Of a DNA stretch of 64,000 nt, positions 26,618 to 36,137 are shown piece by piece (the first letter of the stretch is position 1; every line of letters begins with the position of its first letter). The notes beneath the pieces were generated by a model. The model did not search any database and was not told where the DNA came from. It saw only the letters and a list, made by a program, of their open reading frames with translations. Origin of the DNA: Schaalia odontolytica (lineage in GTDB: Bacteria; Actinomycetota; Actinomycetes; Actinomycetales; Actinomycetaceae); the NCBI RefSeq assembly GCF_031191545.1, contig NZ_CP133472.1, positions 1 through 64,000 on the forward strand. The letters run 5' to 3'. The position numbers and the translations under genes were made by a program.

Positions 26618-27982
26618 ATGTCACGCCACCGCATTGTCATCATCGGTTCCGGCTTCGCAGGCCTCAGCGCCGCGCGCCGCCTGAAGAACGCCGACGCCGA
26701 CATCACCATCCTGGCCCGCACATCGCACCACCTCTTCCAGCCCCTGCTGTACCAGGTGGCCACGGGCATCCTCTCCGAGGGCGACATCGCCCCCACCACG
26801 CGCGAGATCCTGCGAGGTCAGAAGAACGTGACGGTTCTACAGGCGCTCGTCGAGGAGATTGACGTCGAGGCGCGCGTCGTCAAGTGGCGCAACCACAACA
26901 AGCACGAGCAGACCGACTACGACACGCTGATCGTTGCGGCGGGTGCGGGCCAGTCCTACTTCGGCAACGACCACTTCGCTGTCTTTGCGCCGGGCATGAA
27001 GACGATCGACGACGCCCTGGAACTGCGCGCGCGTATCTTCGGCGCGTTTGAGCTGGCCGAGATCGAGACCGACCCGGCTGCTATCGAGAAGCTCCTCACC
27101 TTCGTCGTCGTGGGTGCCGGCCCGACCGGCGTCGAGATGGCCGGACAGATCCGCGAGCTCGCCTCTCACACTCTCAAGGGCGAGTTCCGCAACATCGACC
27201 CGACCAAGGCGCGCGTCATCCTGGTGGACGGCGCCGAGCATCCTCTCCCCCCGTTCGGCGAGGCGCTCGGCCTCAAGACCGAAGAGGCACTGGCCAAGCT
27301 TGGCGTCGAGATGAAGATGAACGCCTTCGTCACTGGCGTGGACTCCGAGGGCGTGACGATCAAGTACAAGTCCGGCGAGGAAGAGCGGATCGAGTCCGTA
27401 TGCAAGGTGTGGGCCGCCGGCGTGGCCGCGAGCCCGCTGGGCCGGGCCCTCGGCGAGGCCACGGGCGCCGAGGTGGACCGCGCGGGGCGCGTCACCGTCA
27501 ACAAGGACCTTACCCTGCCGGGCCACCCCGAGATCTTCGTGCTCGGCGACATGATGGCCTTCCCGGGCGTACCGGGCGTCGCGCAGGGTGCGATCCAGTC
27601 CGCGCGCTTCGCCGCAGACACCATCGCCGCTCGCCTGGCGGGCCGATCCCCGAAGGCCACCGAGTTCGTCTACAACGACAAGGGCTCGATGGCGACGATC
27701 GCGCGCTACAAGGCCGTCGTGAAGATGGGCAACACGAAGCTGACCGGCTTCGTCGCATGGGTTGCCTGGTGCTTCCTGCACCTGCTCTACATCGTCGGCT
27801 TCAAGTCGCAGGTCGGCACCCTGGTCAGCTGGTTCTTCAGCTTCCTGTCCGGCGCACGCCCCCAGCGCACGACCACCAACCAGCAGATGGTAGGCCGCCT
27901 CGCCCTAGAGCAGCTCGGCGCGGGTGCTTCCGGCAAGCTCGTCGTTGGTGAAGACGTCGCCGAAGAGCGCGAAGAGGACTGA
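26618..27982 (+). CDS. ndh: type II NADH dehydrogenase
   Basis: Non-proton-pumping NADH:quinone oxidoreductase at the inner face of the membrane. The 454-residue flavoprotein has the FAD loop IIGSGFAGLSAARRL (about 6-20), the NADH loop VVVGAGPTGVEMAG near 166-179, the FAD contact EIFVLGDMMAFPGVPGVAQ near 305-323, and a hydrophobic C-terminal anchor around 375-410. ATG 26618 has AAGGAGAGTCTT upstream. An iron-box-like site precedes it and a perfect hairpin follows it. Confidence 0.95.
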   Translation: MSRHRIVIIGSGFAGLSAARRLKNADADITILARTSHHLFQPLLYQVATGILSEGDIAPTTREILRGQKNVTVLQALVEEIDVEARVVKWRNHNKHEQTDYDTLIVAAGAGQSYFGNDHFAVFAPGMKTIDDALELRARIFGAFELAEIETDPAAIEKLLTFVVVGAGPTGVEMAGQIRELASHTLKGEFRNIDPTKARVILVDGAEHPLPPFGEALGLKTEEALAKLGVEMKMNAFVTGVDSEGVTIKYKSGEEERIESVCKVWAAGVAASPLGRALGEATGAEVDRAGRVTVNKDLTLPGHPEIFVLGDMMAFPGVPGVAQGAIQSARFAADTIAARLAGRSPKATEFVYNDKGSMATIARYKAVVKMGNTKLTGFVAWVAWCFLHLLYIVGFKSQVGTLVSWFFSFLSGARPQRTTTNQQMVGRLALEQLGAGASGKLVVGEDVAEEREED

Positions 27983-28063: not shown

Positions 28064-28099
28064 GTGTGGGGCCGGAAGCAAGAGCTTCCGGCCCCACAC
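28064..28099. terminator. terminator after ndh; left palindrome of the island
   Basis: A perfect 16-bp stem GTGTGGGGCCGGAAGC/GCTTCCGGCCCCACAC with an AAGA loop, 81 nt past ndh. Its inner 12-bp arm GGGGCCGGAAGC is identical to that of the hairpin at 32453-32480, on the other side of the STAND/IS3 island. Confidence 0.85.
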
Positions 28100-28118: not shown

Positions 28119-28155
28119 GCGACATGCGCTCCTGTGCGTATGTAGACTGTGCCCA
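28119..28155 (+). promoter_or_regulatory. leaderless promoter of the STAND gene
   Basis: GCGACA (28119-28124), an 18-nt spacer and TAGACT (28143-28148) lie 6 nt before ATG 28155. No ribosome-binding site is present, so the transcript should begin at or within a base of the start codon. This is the same layout as at several host genes in the window. Confidence 0.55.
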
Positions 28156-30986
28156 TGAGCACAAACAGTAACGTCGCCAATCTGTCAATCTTGGTCGTGA
28201 AGACCCTAGTCAAGATGGCCGGATTTGGCTTCGCCGCCGACATGATCGACGGCGCGCAGGAGTGCCTCAATCTGCTTGCCGACCTGAAGAACGACGCTCT
28301 TAATAATCCCAATGCGGAGATGATTCGCACGCTGAAAGGCGCAATCAATTCTGAGCTTAATGCCATTCAAGACACACTTCAGCAGGACGGCCTGAGTAGG
28401 AAACAGATTAAGCACGCCGTGGCGCAGCTATCGGATGCAGCGGGCCAAACAATCAAGAATCTGACAGAGGACGATGACGCCCTTATCCGCGCGGTCCAGC
28501 AACCCGAACACTTCATTGAAGATCTAAAAAGCCACGCCGTACCACTTCCGGACGACTCAAGCGCGGGTATGCAGGCCCACTACGAGAAACTCCTCGATCA
28601 AATCGCGCTAGAATTCCTTACCCTCGCACCTTGGTCCGCAAACTTTGAACACGTCGCTCTGACGAGCTTGTTACGCTGCTTCTCTACTTTGGAGGCCCGT
28701 ATCAAACAAGCTGAGCAAGAGATACGCGAATCCATTAAGCAGAGCGAAAAGCGTCTACACGAACACATAGACAAACAAACGGAATATATCGTCGAAGCAG
28801 TAATCAATAGCGGCCCGAACACATTCACCATACGCCGATTTGATACCGGAACACGACCAGCTCCACTATCTCACTCGTTGCCACGATACCCGAAAAGTGG
28901 TGACGATACGCTCCAGAAAATTGTATTCGAGTCGTCTGCAACAGGACAACCAACACGCAATGTCCTAATTGGACGACCTGGAAGCGGAAAGACCCAGATC
29001 GCAGCATCCATCGCCAACGAATGCAACACCGATGACTGGTCGATGATAGCCTGGTTCGACGCATCGTCACGTTCGAAACTCGAGCAGCAATACGTTATTT
29101 TTGGCGAGTCAGCACTCGGGATCATTAGAGACACATCAGAGAGTCCTGCACAGAGCATCGGCAAGATACTACCAAGGTTGAAACAAATTACCAAAGAAAG
29201 GACGCTATTTGTATTTGACAACGTCGAAAGCATCAATGACATAATGGGCTTACTTCCTACAGACTTAGGGGCAAATATTGTCGTTACCACCCGAAAAAAC
29301 TCCGGCTGGGACTCTCAGGAGGGTTGGAACATATTTCGGATAGATAATTTCACACGTCGTGAGTCCGTCGACTATCTGACGAAAGTCACCAACGATGATG
29401 ACAGAAAATCGGCCACAAAACTAGCCACATATTTAGGTGACCTACCTCTCGCAATTGCGCAAGCGGCAGCGATGGCAAAACGTTACTTTGACTCGAGCAT
29501 TTCTGACTATTATACATACCTGCAGTCACATTGCGACGAAGACCTTGAAGAACTACTCGAACCAATTGAAGGCAACGACTATACCCAAGGGGCGATCCAT
29601 GCTCTTCGAAACGCTAAGCAGACCACACTATCTAAAATTACCAGTAACACAGTCAAAGAAGAAGCCATTAAAATTCTGGATTCATTATGCTACCTGGACG
29701 AAACAGGCGTTCCAAAAAACTGGCTTAAACGCAAAAGTGACTTTAACAGAAGCAGAGCCTACCAAGCCTTAATCGATTCATCACTAATCGAAGAATCGGA
29801 CGGTGCACAATTCACGCGCATTCACCGATTGCTTGCACGATCAATGCGAAGCCGATCGACCCATTCAACTTCAGTAACCAACGCAATAGAGACACTAGAA
29901 TATGCTCTGGGAAGGCAGCTGCAGGATCAATCGATTGAAATTAGAATGCAACATTTACGACACATTTCGACACAACTTCGGGCAATTTGCCAATATTTAA
30001 TAAACACTGAAGACAACTTCCCACTGACGATCGACGCTATAATAATCGACACACTGAGATACGCTTACGACTTCGGAATGTTCAATTGTGCAACATCACT
30101 CTATACTACGATCCACCAATTAACATTCCTTCAGAATAAGGAATCATCCTGGCTAACGATACTTGACTTCCTCGGAATTAACTTGTGCGCACTGAGGAAA
30201 TTTGACGACGCTCATTCAGTTTACAAAATACTATTTTCCAGCATAGATGATACGCATTTTCTGTACCATATATATAGAGGACACCTTGCCCGATTACTGT
30301 ATTTTGAAGGACAAGATGTGCAAGCGTTAGAAATTTGCAAAAATACAATCGAAAGCACCGATGCATCTGATCCATTTTATGGGATCTACGAATACACTTT
30401 CGCCAAGATGATGATCGACACTACCTTTCCTTTTGACAGCGACAATCAGGCGCATATTCATAATGCGAACACAGCGATTCGTCACGCTCACTTGGCGATT
30501 CATCACACAACTGAAAGTCTTCATCAATTTGAACCTCGACATCGGATTAACGCCTGGATGACGATGGCCGAAGCATACAGCGCATTAGATCTACATACAG
30601 AAGCAATACACTATTCAAAAAAAGCACTCAACGCGTCACTTCACCAATTAGAAGATTCACACCCAGACGTTTACACGTGCAAGTTCAATCTCTTGGCATA
30701 TTCCAAGCGATGCTTCGGCCTTACTCAAGCGATAGTCGACGAACTTACCACTTTGGTCTCCGACTTGGAAGCTCAGTATACGACTTTCAGCCCTGAGGCT
30801 TTTACAATGCACTACATACTTGCAAAATGGCTTTTTGAAGCAAAACGCTATCAGGAGGCTATTGCTGAAGTCGACCTATGCATCACCGCCTCAGAAAGCC
30901 AAAGCGAGACGACTGATCCTCCATTAGACTCATTATATACATTGCGAAATTTGGCGACTTCACAACTGGCAGAGTTATGTAATTGA
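28155..30986 (+). CDS. STAND NTPase with helical N-domain, NB-ARC and TPR repeats (candidate immune receptor)
   Basis: A 943-residue NLR-like protein with no trained name I can give. Residues 1-230 are all-helical and end in a coiled coil (about 178-215); no enzyme motif is seen there, and it recalls the N-terminal helical domains of actinobacterial NACHT/NB-ARC proteins. The NTPase follows: Walker A GRPGSGKT (273-280), Walker B LFVFDNVE (351-358), sensor IVVTTRKNS (375-383), GxP motif GDLPLAIAQ (428-436) and a winged-helix end with IHRLLARS near 556. TPR-like helices fill about 675-915. Such proteins often act as one-gene antiphage sensors or as regulators. Codon use is much more A/T-rich than in neighbours, most clearly after about 28500, which indicates transfer. 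It stands alone, followed by a broken transposase. GTG 28149 is an alternative start. Confidence 0.88.
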   Translation: MSTNSNVANLSILVVKTLVKMAGFGFAADMIDGAQECLNLLADLKNDALNNPNAEMIRTLKGAINSELNAIQDTLQQDGLSRKQIKHAVAQLSDAAGQTIKNLTEDDDALIRAVQQPEHFIEDLKSHAVPLPDDSSAGMQAHYEKLLDQIALEFLTLAPWSANFEHVALTSLLRCFSTLEARIKQAEQEIRESIKQSEKRLHEHIDKQTEYIVEAVINSGPNTFTIRRFDTGTRPAPLSHSLPRYPKSGDDTLQKIVFESSATGQPTRNVLIGRPGSGKTQIAASIANECNTDDWSMIAWFDASSRSKLEQQYVIFGESALGIIRDTSESPAQSIGKILPRLKQITKERTLFVFDNVESINDIMGLLPTDLGANIVVTTRKNSGWDSQEGWNIFRIDNFTRRESVDYLTKVTNDDDRKSATKLATYLGDLPLAIAQAAAMAKRYFDSSISDYYTYLQSHCDEDLEELLEPIEGNDYTQGAIHALRNAKQTTLSKITSNTVKEEAIKILDSLCYLDETGVPKNWLKRKSDFNRSRAYQALIDSSLIEESDGAQFTRIHRLLARSMRSRSTHSTSVTNAIETLEYALGRQLQDQSIEIRMQHLRHISTQLRAICQYLINTEDNFPLTIDAIIIDTLRYAYDFGMFNCATSLYTTIHQLTFLQNKESSWLTILDFLGINLCALRKFDDAHSVYKILFSSIDDTHFLYHIYRGHLARLLYFEGQDVQALEICKNTIESTDASDPFYGIYEYTFAKMMIDTTFPFDSDNQAHIHNANTAIRHAHLAIHHTTESLHQFEPRHRINAWMTMAEAYSALDLHTEAIHYSKKALNASLHQLEDSHPDVYTCKFNLLAYSKRCFGLTQAIVDELTTLVSDLEAQYTTFSPEAFTMHYILAKWLFEAKRYQEAIAEVDLCITASESQSETTDPPLDSLYTLRNLATSQLAELCN

Positions 30987-31252
30987 TGACGGTGTCTCTG
31001 GCTACCAGGAATGTGTTGGTTATACGCTTCTGTGGCGGCGGTAGCCGGGGATTACTCTAGCGCAGTTGTCTTACTCGTACGCGATCGCGGCGAGGCAGGG
31101 TTGCAGGCTTGTGAGCGAAGTCCCTTAACGCAGTTGCGACATATTTATCGATCGGCACTTACGTTGGCTCTGGAGGGGGCAGGGCATTCCGCACCGTTTG
31201 TTTTAAGAGATTGTTCTGAGTAGTCCTGGTTGCTTGTGACCGGGCAGATTGG
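30987..31252. other. non-coding or decayed segment between the STAND gene and the IS remnant
   Basis: This 266-nt stretch returns to host-like GC. It contains a 70-codon open frame (31011-31223, plus) with no recognisable motif, no ribosome-binding site and no -10. I see no hairpin, tRNA or repeat in it. It is most simply a scar left by insertion and decay. Confidence 0.5.
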
Positions 31253-32330
31253 ATGACTATGAGGAAGTTACGCAAGCTCAAGCCTCAGCAGATTCGCGCA
31301 AGGCTGGAGATGACCGAGGCGTTGCGAGCTGACAGCACGAGTAGGGCCCAGGCCTGCCGCCAACTGGATAGAGGCATCGCCGTGCCCGTGGCACCGGCGT
31401 TATGGGCTGATGAGACGCTACGTGGCCTAGTCAACGCGTGAGTTGCGCGAGCGCAACTCACGCCTCAAACAGTTGTTGGCAAAGCTGGCGACAGCATCGG
31501 CGCGTGAGCTCGCGGACGGAAGCTTCTCGGCCCAGCACACCGGCGCGAGGCTGTGGGCTGCCTGGTCGGCCGGGGTCTTCTCAGCGTCTTGCGTGCCGCT
31601 TTGTCGAGCTGTCTCGGTCAGCGCATCGCCGTGCCCGCGCGGCGGGCAGGGCGAGCACGCTGTAGGACTATGCGCCCGTACACCAGTAGATGAACGATTT
31701 TGCCGCCGCACAACGACACTGGTCCTATAAAAGTGCCCGGGCGTGCGCCCACCCTAGCCGAGGGCATTGTCGCGGCCTGTGTGATACGTTCCGGTGCTTG
31801 TGGCGTGTAGAAGGACTGCGCGTGCGCGCGAAAAGCCCTCAAGCCTCGCGCCGCGCCTACAGTGCCTGGTCGGGGTTAGCGCTCCGGGGCAAGTGTGAGC
31901 CAGCGATTTCCGCTTCGATTCGAATTGGAAGGAGCGCGTGTGCAGGGTCTGTACCGTCATCGATGAGTTCACCCTTCTTCACCCGGCCTTCCATATCGAT
32001 CGGTGTATAGGTAGCCTCCTACGTAATCGAAATGCTCCACCTGGCTACCTTAGCCTTTAGGGTACCTCAGGTGCTGCGCACCAATTTCGGACCTGAATCG
32101 ATCGCAACAGCCTTGCGGCGATAGGCCAACGAGCACGATACACCCGAAGCGTGATCCCACCCGGCTAGCAGTGCTTGCACAACCACATGTGCAACGACCT
32201 CCACGAGGACGAAATGTTCGAGGATCTGAATCACGGAAGCACACAGATCGGCAGCTGGTCCCAGCGCTACAGTGAAGAACACCCCACAGCACGTGAGGTT
32301 GGCTCTCACCCAACCAATACGCATGCCAAT
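31253..32330 (+). pseudogene. IS3-family transposase remnant (OrfA and OrfB, multiply frameshifted)
   Basis: Pieces of an IS3-type transposase occur in order in changing frames. OrfA: RKLRKLKPQQIRARLEM and QACRQLD (31256-31370), then after a frameshift near 31440 the leucine zipper LRERNSRLKQLLAKL. OrfB: SSQRLACRFVELSRSAHRR (about 31590), FAAAQRHWSYKSARA, LWRVEGLRVRAKSP (about 31795), DFRFDSNWKERVCRVCTVIDEF (about 31905, first catalytic aspartate), VIEMLHLA and VPQVLRTNFGPESIATALRR (about 32065, where the second aspartate of DNGPE is replaced), and DDLHEDEMFEDLNH-like text near 32190-32230 around the glutamate. Several stops interrupt it. No terminal inverted repeats were found. It cannot make an active transposase. 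Confidence 0.85.
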
Positions 32331-32452
32331 GGGCACAACAGCACCAATAACAACCAACAACCCTCAAAATACCCATCGCACATACCAGACCAGGCCGTCG
32401 AAAACAGCAGGAAGTAAAGTCAGTCACCGAGTAGCACACTTGGATACGCGTC

Positions 32453-32480
32453 GGGGCCGGAAGCTTTCGCTTCCGGCCCC
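32453..32480 (-). terminator. terminator after tRNA-Val; right palindrome of the island
   Basis: A perfect 12-bp stem GGGGCCGGAAGC/GCTTCCGGCCCC with a TTTC loop (GAAA tetraloop on the minus strand), 10 nt beyond the tRNA 3' end. The stem is identical to the core of the ndh terminator at 28064-28099. Confidence 0.8.
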
Positions 32481-32489
32481 AGCCGCTTG

Positions 32490-32563
32490 TGGGCCCTACC
32501 GGGCTCGAACCGATGACCTTCTGGGTGTAAACCAGATGCTCTAGCCAACTGAGCTAAAGGCCC
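32490..32563 (-). tRNA. tRNA-Val (anticodon TAC)
   Basis: A complete cloverleaf on the minus strand: acceptor GGGCCTT/AGGGCCC with one G-U pair, D arm GCTC...GAGC, anticodon stem CTGG/CCAG with loop TTTACAC giving anticodon TAC, and T arm ATCGG-TTCGAGC-CCGGT. CCA is not encoded. The 3' end faces the STAND/IS3 island. Confidence 0.95.
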
Positions 32564-32664: not shown

Positions 32665-33066
32665 CTAGCGGCGCGACCGCGGACGCGCGGTCAGGCGCAC
32701 GCCCGCCCAATTGTCTCCGAGAGCCGTCGAGGTCGTGGCGTGCAGGCCAGCGATCTTAGCGGCCTCCTCCACGTCGCCTACGCGCACGGAGTTGGGACGT
32801 CCCGGCTTGGGGATCAACACCCAGATCAGCCCGCCATCATCCAGGTTCGACATCGCGTCCACGAGCACGTCCGCGAGGTCCTCTTCCTCTGCGTCATCCG
32901 CGCGCCACCACACGATTGCACCGTCCACGACGTCCGCGTAATCGACGTCCACGATCGGCTGGCCGGTCTCTTCTTCAATCGCTGCGCGCACGGCCTGATC
33001 GACGTCATCATCGACGTAGAACTCCTGCACGATCGCATCGGACGCAAAACCCAGGCGCACTGCCAT
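32665..33066 (-). CDS. DUF3052 family protein
   Basis: A 133-residue acidic cytoplasmic protein of the actinobacterial DUF3052 family, function unknown. Features are the QPIVDVDYADVVDGAIVWWR segment (about 38-57), a run of acidic residues, and GGLIWVLIPKPGRPNSV (about 78-94). Members often lie next to aceE, as here, where the two are divergent. The start is ATG 33066 (or GTG 33069), which overlaps the TGA of a leaderless 17-codon upstream ORF as TGATG. No independent ribosome-binding site is obvious, so it probably depends on that upstream ORF. Confidence 0.88.
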   Translation of the reverse strand: MAVRLGFASDAIVQEFYVDDDVDQAVRAAIEEETGQPIVDVDYADVVDGAIVWWRADDAEEEDLADVLVDAMSNLDDGGLIWVLIPKPGRPNSVRVGDVEEAAKIAGLHATTSTALGDNWAGVRLTARPRSRR

Positions 33067-33119
33067 CACGCAGCACCGCCCATCATCGAGCTGGCGCTCA
33101 GTGTCATATCAACGTTCAC
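33066..33119 (-). CDS. leaderless 17-codon upstream ORF
   Basis: Begins with GTG at 33119, exactly 6 nt after TAGGAT (33131-33126), with TTGCAT 19 nt further upstream. The predicted peptide is MNVDMTLSASSMMGGAA. Its TGA (33068-33066) overlaps the ATG of the DUF3052 gene, so ribosomes finishing here could re-initiate on it. It is in a different frame from DUF3052. No attenuator-type codon run is visible. The layout is clear; expression is inferred. Confidence 0.5.
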   Translation of the reverse strand: MNVDMTLSASSMMGGAA

Positions 33120-33389: not shown

Positions 33390-36137
33390 GTGAGCCAACT
33401 CCACGAGTCCCACCCTGTCGTCGTTAACGGCCTGATCCCTCAGGTTCCCGACAACGACCCCCAGGAGACCGCCGAATGGGTTGAGTCCCTGTCCGGGCTC
33501 ATCAACGAAAAGGGCGGCCCCCGCGCACGCTACATCCTGCTGAACATGCTCAACGAAGCACGCCGCAACGGCGTTCAGCTCCCCCAGGAATACACGACCC
33601 CCTACGTCAACACCATCCACGTTGACCAAGAGCCGTACTTCCCCGGCGACGAAGCCATGGAGCGCGAATACCGCCGCTGGATCCGTTGGAACGCCGCCGT
33701 CCAGGTGACGCGCGCCCAGCGCCCCGGTGTCAAGGTCGGCGGACACATCTCCTCCTACGCCTCGGTTGCCACCCTCTACGAAGTCGGCCTCAACCACTTC
33801 TTCCGCGGCAAGGACCACCCCGGCGGCGGCGACCACGTGTTCTTCCAGGGACACGCCTCCCCCGGCCCCTACGCCCGCGCCTTCCTCGAGGGACGTCTCT
33901 CCGAAGAGCAGATGGACGGCTTCCGTCAGCAGGTCTCCACGGAGCACGGCCTGCCCTCGTACCCGCACCCGCGCCAGCTCGAAGACTTCTGGGAGTACCC
34001 CACGGTCTCGCTCGGCCTGGGTCCCGCCGAGGCCATCTACCAGGCCTGGTTCGACCGTTACCTGCACATGAACGGCATCAAGGACACCTCTCAGCAGCAC
34101 ACCTGGGCCTTCATCGGCGACGGTGAGATGGACGAGCCCGAGTCTCGCGGCATGCTCCAGCTCGCCGCTCAGCAGCGCCTGGACAACCTCACCTTCGTCA
34201 TCAACTGCAACCTGCAGCGTCTCGACGGCCCCGTGCGCGGCAACGGCAAGATCATTCAGGAGCTTGAGGCTTTCTTCAAGGGTGCCGGCTGGAACGTCAT
34301 CAAGGTCATCTGGGGCCGCGGCTGGGACCAGCTGCTCGCCGCCGACAAGGACGATGCCCTCGTCCACGTCATGAACGAGACCCTGGACGGTGACTACCAG
34401 ACCTTCCGCGCCAACGACGGTGCCTTCGTGCGCGAGCACTTCTTCGGTCGCGACCCGCGCACGAAGGAAATGGTCAAGAACTGGACCGACGAGCAGCTCT
34501 GGGAACTCAAGCGCGGCGGCCACGACTACCGCAAGGTCTACGCCGCCTACAAGGCCGCCATGGACCACACGGGCCAGCCGACCGTCGTCCTTGCCCACAC
34601 CATCAAGGGCTACGCCCTGGGCTCGCACTTCGCCGGTCGTAACTCGACGCACCAGATGAAGAAGCTGACCCTCGAGGACGCCAAGCAGCTGCGCGATCGC
34701 CTGCAGATCCCGATCACCGACGAGGAACTCGAGCGCGATCCCTACAAGCCGCCGTACTACATGCCGCCGGCCGACCACCCGGCCCTGCAGTACATGAAGG
34801 AGCGCCGCGAGATCCTCGGCGGCTGGGTGCCCGAGCGACGCGCCGATCGCCAGCCTAAGCTGCCGGCCCTGCCCACCCGGCCCTTCGATGCCCTGTCCAA
34901 GGGTTCGGGCAAGCTTGAGGTCGCCACGACCATGGCTCTCGTCCGCCTCATCAAGGACCTCCTCAAGGACAAGGAGGTCGGCAAGTACTTCGTGCCGATC
35001 ATTCCCGACGAGGCCCGCACCTTCGGTCTGGACGCGATCTTCCCCTCGGCGAAGATCTTCAACACGACCGGCCAGTCCTACACCCCCGTCGACGCCGATA
35101 TGATGCTGTCTTACCGCGAATCCGAGCAGGGCCGAATCCTGCACACGGGCATCACCGAGGCCGGCTCCTCCGCCGCCTTCCAGGTCGTCGGCACGGCGTA
35201 CTCCACACACGACCTGCCGATGGTGCCGATCTACATCTTCTACTCGATGTTCGGCTTCCAGCGCACGGGCGACCAGTTCTGGGCAGCCGGCGACCAGCTC
35301 ACCAAGGGCTTCGTCATCGGTGCCACCGCGGGCCGCACGACGCTCGCGGGCGAAGGCCTGCAGCACATGGACGGCCACTCGCACGTCCTGGCTGCCACCA
35401 ACCACGCGTTCGTCTCCTACGACCCGGCCTACGCCTACGAAATCCGTCACATCATGGCGGACGGTCTCGAGCGCATGTACGGCGACGCGGGCGACCGCGA
35501 CCCCAACGTCATGTACTACCTGACGGTGTACAACGAGCCGATCCACCAGCCGGCCGAACCTGAGAACGTGGACGTCGAGGGCATCATCAAGGGCATCTAC
35601 AACCTCGACGAGCATCAGAACTTCGGAGGCCCCAAGGCTCAGCTACTCGCCTCGGGTGTCGGCGTGCCGTGGGCACGCGAAGCCCGCGAACTGCTCGCCC
35701 GCGACTGGGGCGTGGACGCCGCCGTGTGGTCCGTGACCTCGTGGAGCGAGCTGCGCCGCGACGGCCTGGACGCCGAGGAACACAACTACCTGCACCCCAC
35801 GGAGCCGCGCCGCACGCCCTACGTGTCCACGAAGCTCGCAGGACGCGAGGGTCCCTTCGTGGCCTCCTCCGACTTCGACCGTATGCTGCCCGACCAGATC
35901 CGCCAGTGGGTCCCCGGGGACTACCACGTGCTCGGCGCGGATGGCTTCGGCTTCTCCGACACCCGTCGCGCCGCACGCCGCTGGTACCACATCGATGCCG
36001 AATCGATGGTCGTGCGCACGCTGGCAGCCCTGGCCGACAAGGGTCAGATCGACCCCTCGACCGTCCAGCAGGCCATCGAGAAGTACGACCTGTTCAACTA
36101 CTCGATTCAGGGCAACGACCACGCCGGCGAGGAGTGA
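33390..36137 (+). CDS. aceE: pyruvate dehydrogenase E1 component, homodimeric
   Basis: Decarboxylates pyruvate and passes the acetyl group to lipoyl-E2, linking glycolysis to acetyl-CoA. The 915-residue AceE-type protein has the thiamine-diphosphate motif [14 protein letters not shown] followed by [19 protein letters not shown] (about 245-285), and a transketolase C-terminal part with [23 protein letters not shown] near 615-637. The start is GTG 33390 with GAGAAGG 6 nt upstream; longer frames reach back to 33297 without a site. E2 and E3 genes are not adjacent. A bidirectional terminator follows. Confidence 0.97.

Follow-up and report, generated by a model that had tools for sequence, protein, structure and literature searches.

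A candidate exchangeable NLR-like receptor cassette in a chromosomal slot of oral Schaalia and Actinomyces species

In a group of closely related oral actinomycetes, the chromosomal interval between ndh and aceE carries divergent alleles of a single NLR-like STAND receptor gene, or no such gene. The allele analyzed here lies in the first 64,000 nucleotides of the Schaalia odontolytica contig NZ_CP133472.1 (hereafter, the window), where it spans positions 28155 to 30986 of the plus strand (943 amino acids plus stop) and encodes, in order, NNH1-like, NB-ARC, winged-helix, and TPR domains. The gene is best interpreted, with a probability of roughly 0.6, as an exchangeable one-gene NLR-like immune receptor cassette in a dedicated slot (ndh, hairpin, receptor, hairpin, tRNA-Val). 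This interpretation builds on the observed domain order, NTPase motifs, slot synteny, presence or absence among relatives, and divergence far beyond that of the flanks, together with conflict between trees, a recombination edge within ndh, one chimeric copy, and one broken copy. A role in defence is inferred, with anti-phage action the likeliest of several arms-race functions. A first-pass annotation made from the DNA alone had proposed a lone antiphage gene in an AT-rich island. The underlying observation is real; instead of an isolated AT-rich insertion, however, the gene represents one of the alleles found at an exchangeable receptor slot. The one-gene NLR-like receptor is borne out, and its antiphage role stays at the level of a proposal.

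The receptor slot between ndh and aceE

The slot borders were located by ndh and aceE searches across the genus (35 genomes of oral Actinomyces/Schaalia, one per species), and the content of the slot could be determined for 28 of these, namely, the window and 27 fetched intervals. Seven genomes (G003, G005, G016, G018, G022, G027, and G029) were omitted, either because no ndh orthologue was identified or because the two borders fell on different contigs. In the window, the slot is bordered on the left by an ndh-like NADH dehydrogenase gene (26618 to 27982, plus strand) and on the right by a tRNA-Val(tac) gene (32489 to 32563, minus strand), the tRNA gene of the first-pass annotation, past which lies the core gene for an aceE-like pyruvate dehydrogenase E1 (33402 to 36137, plus strand); ndh and aceE were named from their own sequences, with no profile run. 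Every one of the 28 resolved genomes has the tRNA-Val(tac) gene between its ndh and aceE genes.

The genomes with an ndh at least 83% identical to that of the window form a clade of 15 species. An NB-ARC-TPR receptor gene occupies the slot in eight of them (G000, G006, G010, G011, G012, G023, G026, and G034), the slot is empty in the other seven (G017, G019, G020, G024, G025, G028, and G031), and none of the 15 carries unrelated cargo only. A slot that holds divergent versions of a gene, or none, is what would be expected of an arms-race gene. Outside the clade, 3 of the 13 resolved genomes have 157 to 341 bases from the interval start (inside ndh) to the tRNA gene, without an open reading frame (ORF) of 90 amino acids, and the remaining 10 have other ORFs in the slot. 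Pfam scans of 10 of these cargo ORFs, from five genomes, gave mainly metabolic or regulatory assignments: AhpC, a pyridine nucleotide-disulphide oxidoreductase, a PhzF-like protein, a metallo-lactamase fold, SatD, TipAS, DUF5692, a FeMo-cofactor domain, and HEAT repeats; one ORF had no match. In two distant congeners, G014 and G033, high-GC DNA fills the gap between ndh and tRNA-Val over lengths of about 11 and 28 kb, respectively, indicating that large insertions are tolerated at this site.

Across the 35 genomes, an NB-ARC search of the genus in which no more than 55 candidates per genome were scored returned 10 matches that were strong, with E values below 1e-5, all belonging to the receptor family of the window. 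Eight of the 10 are in the slot; of the remaining two, one is an additional copy in G006 and the other is in G002. Nine weaker matches, with E values from 1.9e-4 to 8.9e-4, are located outside the slot. No second receptor match was found in the genome of the window itself (a single contig of 2,455,831 bases), so that the description of the gene as a lone one stands for that genome and not for the clade, where the gene recurs in the same place.

Divergence and exchange of the alleles

The ndh and aceE proteins of the eight genomes with a slot receptor are 85 to 98% identical pairwise, whereas the receptors are 12 to 54% identical in the N-terminal domain, 29 to 74% in NB-ARC, and 23 to 72% in the region after NB-ARC. 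The most variable part is the TPR region, with identities of 15 to 31% for pairs with more than 200 aligned residues and up to 54% over 56 residues in truncated copies. In addition, tandem 126-nucleotide TPR repeats are present in 3 of the 10 copies (91% match in G002, 83% in G006a, and 78% in G006b) and absent from the window allele. The variability of the TPR region and these repeats suggest that the sensor evolves by repeat turnover. Behind the receptor in the G006 slot (L045:3308-4767), two overlapping ORFs of 369 and 117 amino acids have starts that look TPR-like by eye; they are possibly spare sensor modules or cut-off repeats.

Slot, architecture, and promoter layout are the same in all copies, as would be expected if one ancestral gene were inherited vertically, evolved very fast, and was lost independently, without any exchange. 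That scenario is highly improbable. With the receptor alignment, the species topology fails the approximately unbiased test (P = 2.6e-47), and the housekeeping alignment in turn rejects the receptor topology (P = 1.2e-4). G023, a near relative of the window in a housekeeping-gene tree that covers 21 of the 35 genomes, has the other receptor type, and the sister genomes G010 and G011 differ in receptor type. Taken over the whole set, vertical inheritance is rejected, with part of the tree still open to distortion by long branches; because of these long branches and of supports of only 26 to 42 within one type, the receptor tree is not reliable in its details.

Exchange at the slot is directly visible in the sequences of the sister genomes G025 (empty) and G026 (occupied), as a gain in G026 or a loss in G025. 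The two are 95 to 100% identical through ndh and 77% identical in the last ndh window, where G026 is 89% identical to both the window and G023; across the right flank of the slot, they are again 93 to 100% identical. The recombination edge lies near the equivalent of position 27868 and also argues against vertical inheritance; the two sequences differ at 46 of the roughly 1,100 bases leading up to it and at 45 of the roughly 130 bases that follow. Beyond the first 240-base window, the ndh genes of G025 and G026 match that of the window at 88 to 95% identity (78% in the last window of G025), compared with 74 to 84% for aceE; ndh being closer to that of the window than aceE, it was probably imported earlier. 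A second case that does not fit vertical descent is G034, where the first 126 residues of the receptor are 75% identical to the window allele, with stops and a frameshift, and the rest is 38% identical; DNA identity to the window allele drops from about 0.8 to 0.4 to 0.5 near 28640 to 28700. By this sequence comparison, the G034 copy is a chimera as well as a decayed copy. The frames of the other 9 of the 10 copies are open, three of them up to a contig end.

Alleles would be gained, replaced, or lost between species by homologous recombination through the conserved flanks, with effector and sensor modules reshuffled around a more conserved switch. Effector swapping is usual for STAND proteins. 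Related NB-ARC/TPR proteins of other bacteria (L073, L097, L085, and others) have N termini that appear, by eye, trypsin-like, TIR-like, or transmembrane.

Paired hairpins flank the receptor gene. The left one (GTGTGGGGCCGGAAGC-AAGA-GCTTCCGGCCCCACAC) is at 28064 to 28099, and the right one (GGGGCCGGAAGC-TTTC-GCTTCCGGCCCC) is at 32453 to 32480. Their GC-rich core, GGCCGGAAGC-loop-GCTTCCGGCC, is found at these two places, one on each side of the gene, and nowhere else in the genome (two in the window, compared with none in 100 shuffles). Two hairpins, some with one or two changed pairs, are present in all seven occupied slots outside G006, counting one on each contig for G023 and G026, and a single hairpin is present in each of the seven empty clade slots. 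The hairpins may serve as insulating terminators, recombination substrates, or both. The doubling of the hairpin at occupied sites, the neighboring tRNA gene, the low GC content, and the one decayed copy also fit a cassette that is selfish or neutral, entering a hairpin/tRNA site without benefit to the host and resembling a receptor through inherited baggage. We regard such a cassette as very unlikely. The compact slots of G010 and G011 contain no other ORF of at least 90 amino acids between ndh and tRNA-Val and hence no integrase or transposase; furthermore, core Walker residues are retained in all 10 copies, and frames are open in 9 of them, even though the proteins have low identity along much of their length.

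In the window, 1.47 kb of decayed sequence (30987 to 32452), possibly an IS3 relic, separates the receptor gene from the right hairpin, a distance that is 18 nucleotides in G010 and G011, 67 in G012, and 135 in G034. The first-pass annotation placed a dead transposase beside the gene. The evidence for it is the likeness of one 53-amino-acid piece to IS3 transposases (E = 5e-3); another piece matched nothing, scans of the open pieces (six and four) against Pfam and NCBIfam found no transposase, and blastn found no match in plasmids. A 145-bp stretch of this flank recurs with 74% identity at genome positions 1758436 to 1758580, and one of 69 bp recurs with 81% identity at 548759 to 548827. On the other side of the tRNA gene, between it and aceE, there is a 134-amino-acid ORF on the minus strand (32665 to 33069), with look-alikes in G023 and G026.

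Domain architecture and relation to known systems

The receptor ORF (frame 28149 to 30986, plus strand) has a GC content of 46%. As first reported, its base composition is unlike that of the flanks: the three kilobases from 28 to 31 kb have GC contents of 0.52, 0.45, and 0.43, compared with 0.65 to 0.71 in the eight preceding kilobases and 0.61 to 0.67 in the six that follow, and third-position GC is 0.48, compared with 0.89 in ndh. ATG 28155 was chosen as the start because a -10-like box, TAGACT (28143 to 28148, plus strand), ends 6 nucleotides upstream. A TANNNT box 6 or 7 nucleotides before the ATG is found in all 10 receptor copies, which are homologous and hence not independent, compared with 21 of 1,610 ATGs on both strands of the window; this placement would fit a leaderless mRNA.

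The STAND layout claimed in the first-pass annotation, that is, the ORF, the NB-ARC core with its quoted motifs, the TPR tail, and the helical N-terminal domain, was recovered. NB-ARC matches residues 270 to 460 (28962 to 29534; E = 2e-8, 34.3 bits, Pfam cut-off 23.5), with GRPGSGKT at residues 273 to 280 (Walker A), LFVFDNVE at 351 to 358 (Walker B, 351 to 356), and GDLPLAIAQ at 428 to 436 (GLPL-like GDLPLAI, 428 to 434). It is followed by a helical/winged-helix region (29535 to 29885) that contains H557-R558, at a position comparable to the MHD motif of plant NLRs, and then by a C-terminal TPR superhelix (residues about 578 to 943; 29886 to 30983), the putative sensor, where TPR_12 scores 26.2 bits (E = 9.4e-6), under its Pfam cut-off of 30.1. 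GxGK[TS], DN, and HR are kept in all 10 copies, the first Walker A glycine is kept in 9 (not in G034), and the GLPL-like motif is kept in 9 (divergent in G002). With the profile above its cut-off, all three motifs present, and the arrangement of nucleotide-binding, helical, and winged-helix domains found, the protein is a STAND NB-ARC protein with an NLR-like layout by the features tested.

The effector position is held by an all-helical domain (residues 1 to 218; 28155 to 28808) in which, as first noted, no nuclease or other enzyme domain was found. The domain, which the first-pass annotation could not name, is NNH1-like by profile, with borderline membership for the window copy: NNH1 (PF22733; cut-off 27) scores 28.1 bits on residues 1 to 248, 27.7 in the genome search, and 24.9 on the whole protein, and the match (28428 to 28709) covers profile positions 81 to 174 only. 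Eight of the 35 congeners match this profile at E ≤ 1e-3, three of them over the cut-off; none of 14 control genomes does. Receptors of the same family account for seven of these matches, and the eighth, in G007, is 44 positions of another frame; the strongest, in G002, reaches 48.8 bits over positions 2 to 173 of 177 (43.9 in a second scan). A literature search found no publication on NNH1 activity. Near the N terminus, residues 10 to 27 (28182 to 28235) are the most hydrophobic 18-mer of the protein and overlap a predicted helix at residues 3 or 4 to 21. In eight of the nine copies with an intact N terminus, the most hydrophobic 18-mer begins within the first 10 residues (G002, G023, and G026 compared up to the contig end, where their visible sequence stops); in the ninth, G011, 8 of 1,087 windows are more hydrophobic than the N-terminal one.

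In no case did comparison with the families suggested at the outset (Avs, bNACHT, and DUF7779) place the receptor among their members. Among five PADLOC families at E ≤ 1, none is an Avs model by name; NACHT scores 15.7 bits against a cut-off of 26.7 (E = 0.014), far behind NB-ARC; and the DUF7779 profile PF25000, matched weakly in the winged-helix region, scores 18.3 bits (26.4 in the G012 copy), both under 27. The protein shares with bNACHT and Avs the tripartite plan of effector, switch, and sensor, as described in the available text of PMC12169576 and PMC10907252, and differs in having NB-ARC rather than NACHT and no N-terminal enzyme domain. The NNH1 domain itself, named as NACHT N-terminal Helical domain 1, is fused here to NB-ARC instead. 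Compared with Apaf-1/CED-4 and the plant NRC NLRs (NB-ARC, AP-ATPase clade), TPR takes the place of WD40 or LRR, and the modeled N-terminal domain gives no clear fold match that would support a CARD or a plant coiled coil. Set against plant coiled-coil and fungal HeLo-like pore-forming effectors, which are helical bundles with a membrane-inserting first helix, the receptor shows a hydrophobic first helix that is modeled with low confidence.

The best NCBIfam profile for the NB-ARC/TPR part is FxSxx_TPR (FxsT; NF040586), with a different N terminus, raising the alternative that the protein is a STAND-type regulator of metabolism or of a peptide product, like MalT, AfsR/SARP, and the FxsT/HaaT TPR proteins, and not a defence gene. 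This is quite unlikely: the score is 133.1 bits against a membership cut-off of 300, no helix-turn-helix or SARP domain is among the Pfam matches listed, and 7 of the 15 close relatives lack the gene, which has been swapped between the others. No fxs, peptide, or radical-SAM partner was recognized by eye in the ORF list from 22 to 37 kb, on which no profile search of all neighbors was made.

Known clusters of defence genes are islands and hotspots whose content is mixed. The P2/P4 phage and satellite hotspots likewise offer fixed sites for interchangeable anti-phage genes (available text of PMC9122126), whereas this slot holds one architecture in the close clade, lies between core chromosomal genes, and shows no phage backbone. 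The Podospora NLRs het-d and het-e, with high internal repeat conservation, are likewise polymorphic (available text of PMC12222747); the window allele differs in lacking such repeats, in being bacterial, and in interspecies exchange at one slot.

Proposed mechanism and significance

As an immune receptor, the protein would be expressed from its own leaderless promoter and rest as a nucleotide-bound monomer until the TPR superhelix recognizes an invader-derived or invader-altered protein. NB-ARC would then drive oligomerization of the Apaf-1/resistosome kind, exposing NNH1, and the hydrophobic first helix would enter the membrane, so that the infected cell is stopped or killed. That oligomerized NNH1 helices perforate or depolarize the membrane is the least certain step, one we put forward tentatively and at somewhat less than even odds. 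It is proposed because the first helices of plant coiled-coil NLRs insert into membranes, according to the available text of PMC11467418.

Several observations weigh against an immune receptor cassette of this kind. At the N terminus, the requisite membrane action is argued from hydrophobicity alone, as the N-terminal helical model, the outcome of the fold check called for at first, has no PDB match at E ≤ 1e-3 and predicted local distance difference test scores of about 44 to 53 for its first helices; the first-helix moment is a modest 0.20 to 0.36. The NNH1 score is under the cut-off for the whole protein, only three genomes of the genus exceed that cut-off, and the G010 and G026 receptors fall short of E = 1e-3. 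At the slot, the G023 and G026 contigs end inside the receptor, with tRNA-Val and aceE on another contig and the right junction deduced; no hairpins surround the G006 copy; and the other cargo, as far as scanned, is not defensive. The NB-ARC counts depend on the limit of 55 candidates, and three more genomes have marginal matches just over the cut-off, counting neighbors in frame. The best PADLOC match has an E value of 0.0022, over the P-loop region; no relative was found in 50,697 phage records, and IMG/VR yielded two NB-ARC-level matches. Finally, one CARD-NLR-like system in bacteria serves the release of gene-transfer agents, having been co-opted for it (available text of PMC13236601), so that an NLR plan is no proof of defence.

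The same system bears on the identity of the trigger. The receptor could be directed not against phages but against epibiotic Saccharibacteria (TM7) or conjugative elements, or act in gene-transfer-agent control or kin/non-kin incompatibility. The behavior of the slot would be expected in any arms race, and Schaalia odontolytica XH001, in the same genus, hosts the parasitic epibiont Nanosynbacter lyticus TM7x (available text of PMC12369343). The Avs and bNACHT STAND proteins with known triggers, however, sense phage, as far as the available text of PMC10907252 and PMC12169576 goes; a non-phage role is therefore unlikely, and phage defence by an exchangeable receptor is preferred.

More speculatively still than the perforation step itself, oral actinomycetes may possess a dedicated single-gene receptor locus like a plant R-gene or fungal incompatibility locus, with ndh-mediated module swaps and membrane-perforating NB-ARC "resistosomes" acting through the NNH1 helix. 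The slot is a natural experiment in which the flanks are constant and receptor, effector, and sensor vary, and comparison of whole alleles or domains among close relatives could reveal the target of the TPR region and the role of NNH1. Because the hosts include model species for epibiotic Saccharibacteria, non-phage triggers would be testable in this system as well.
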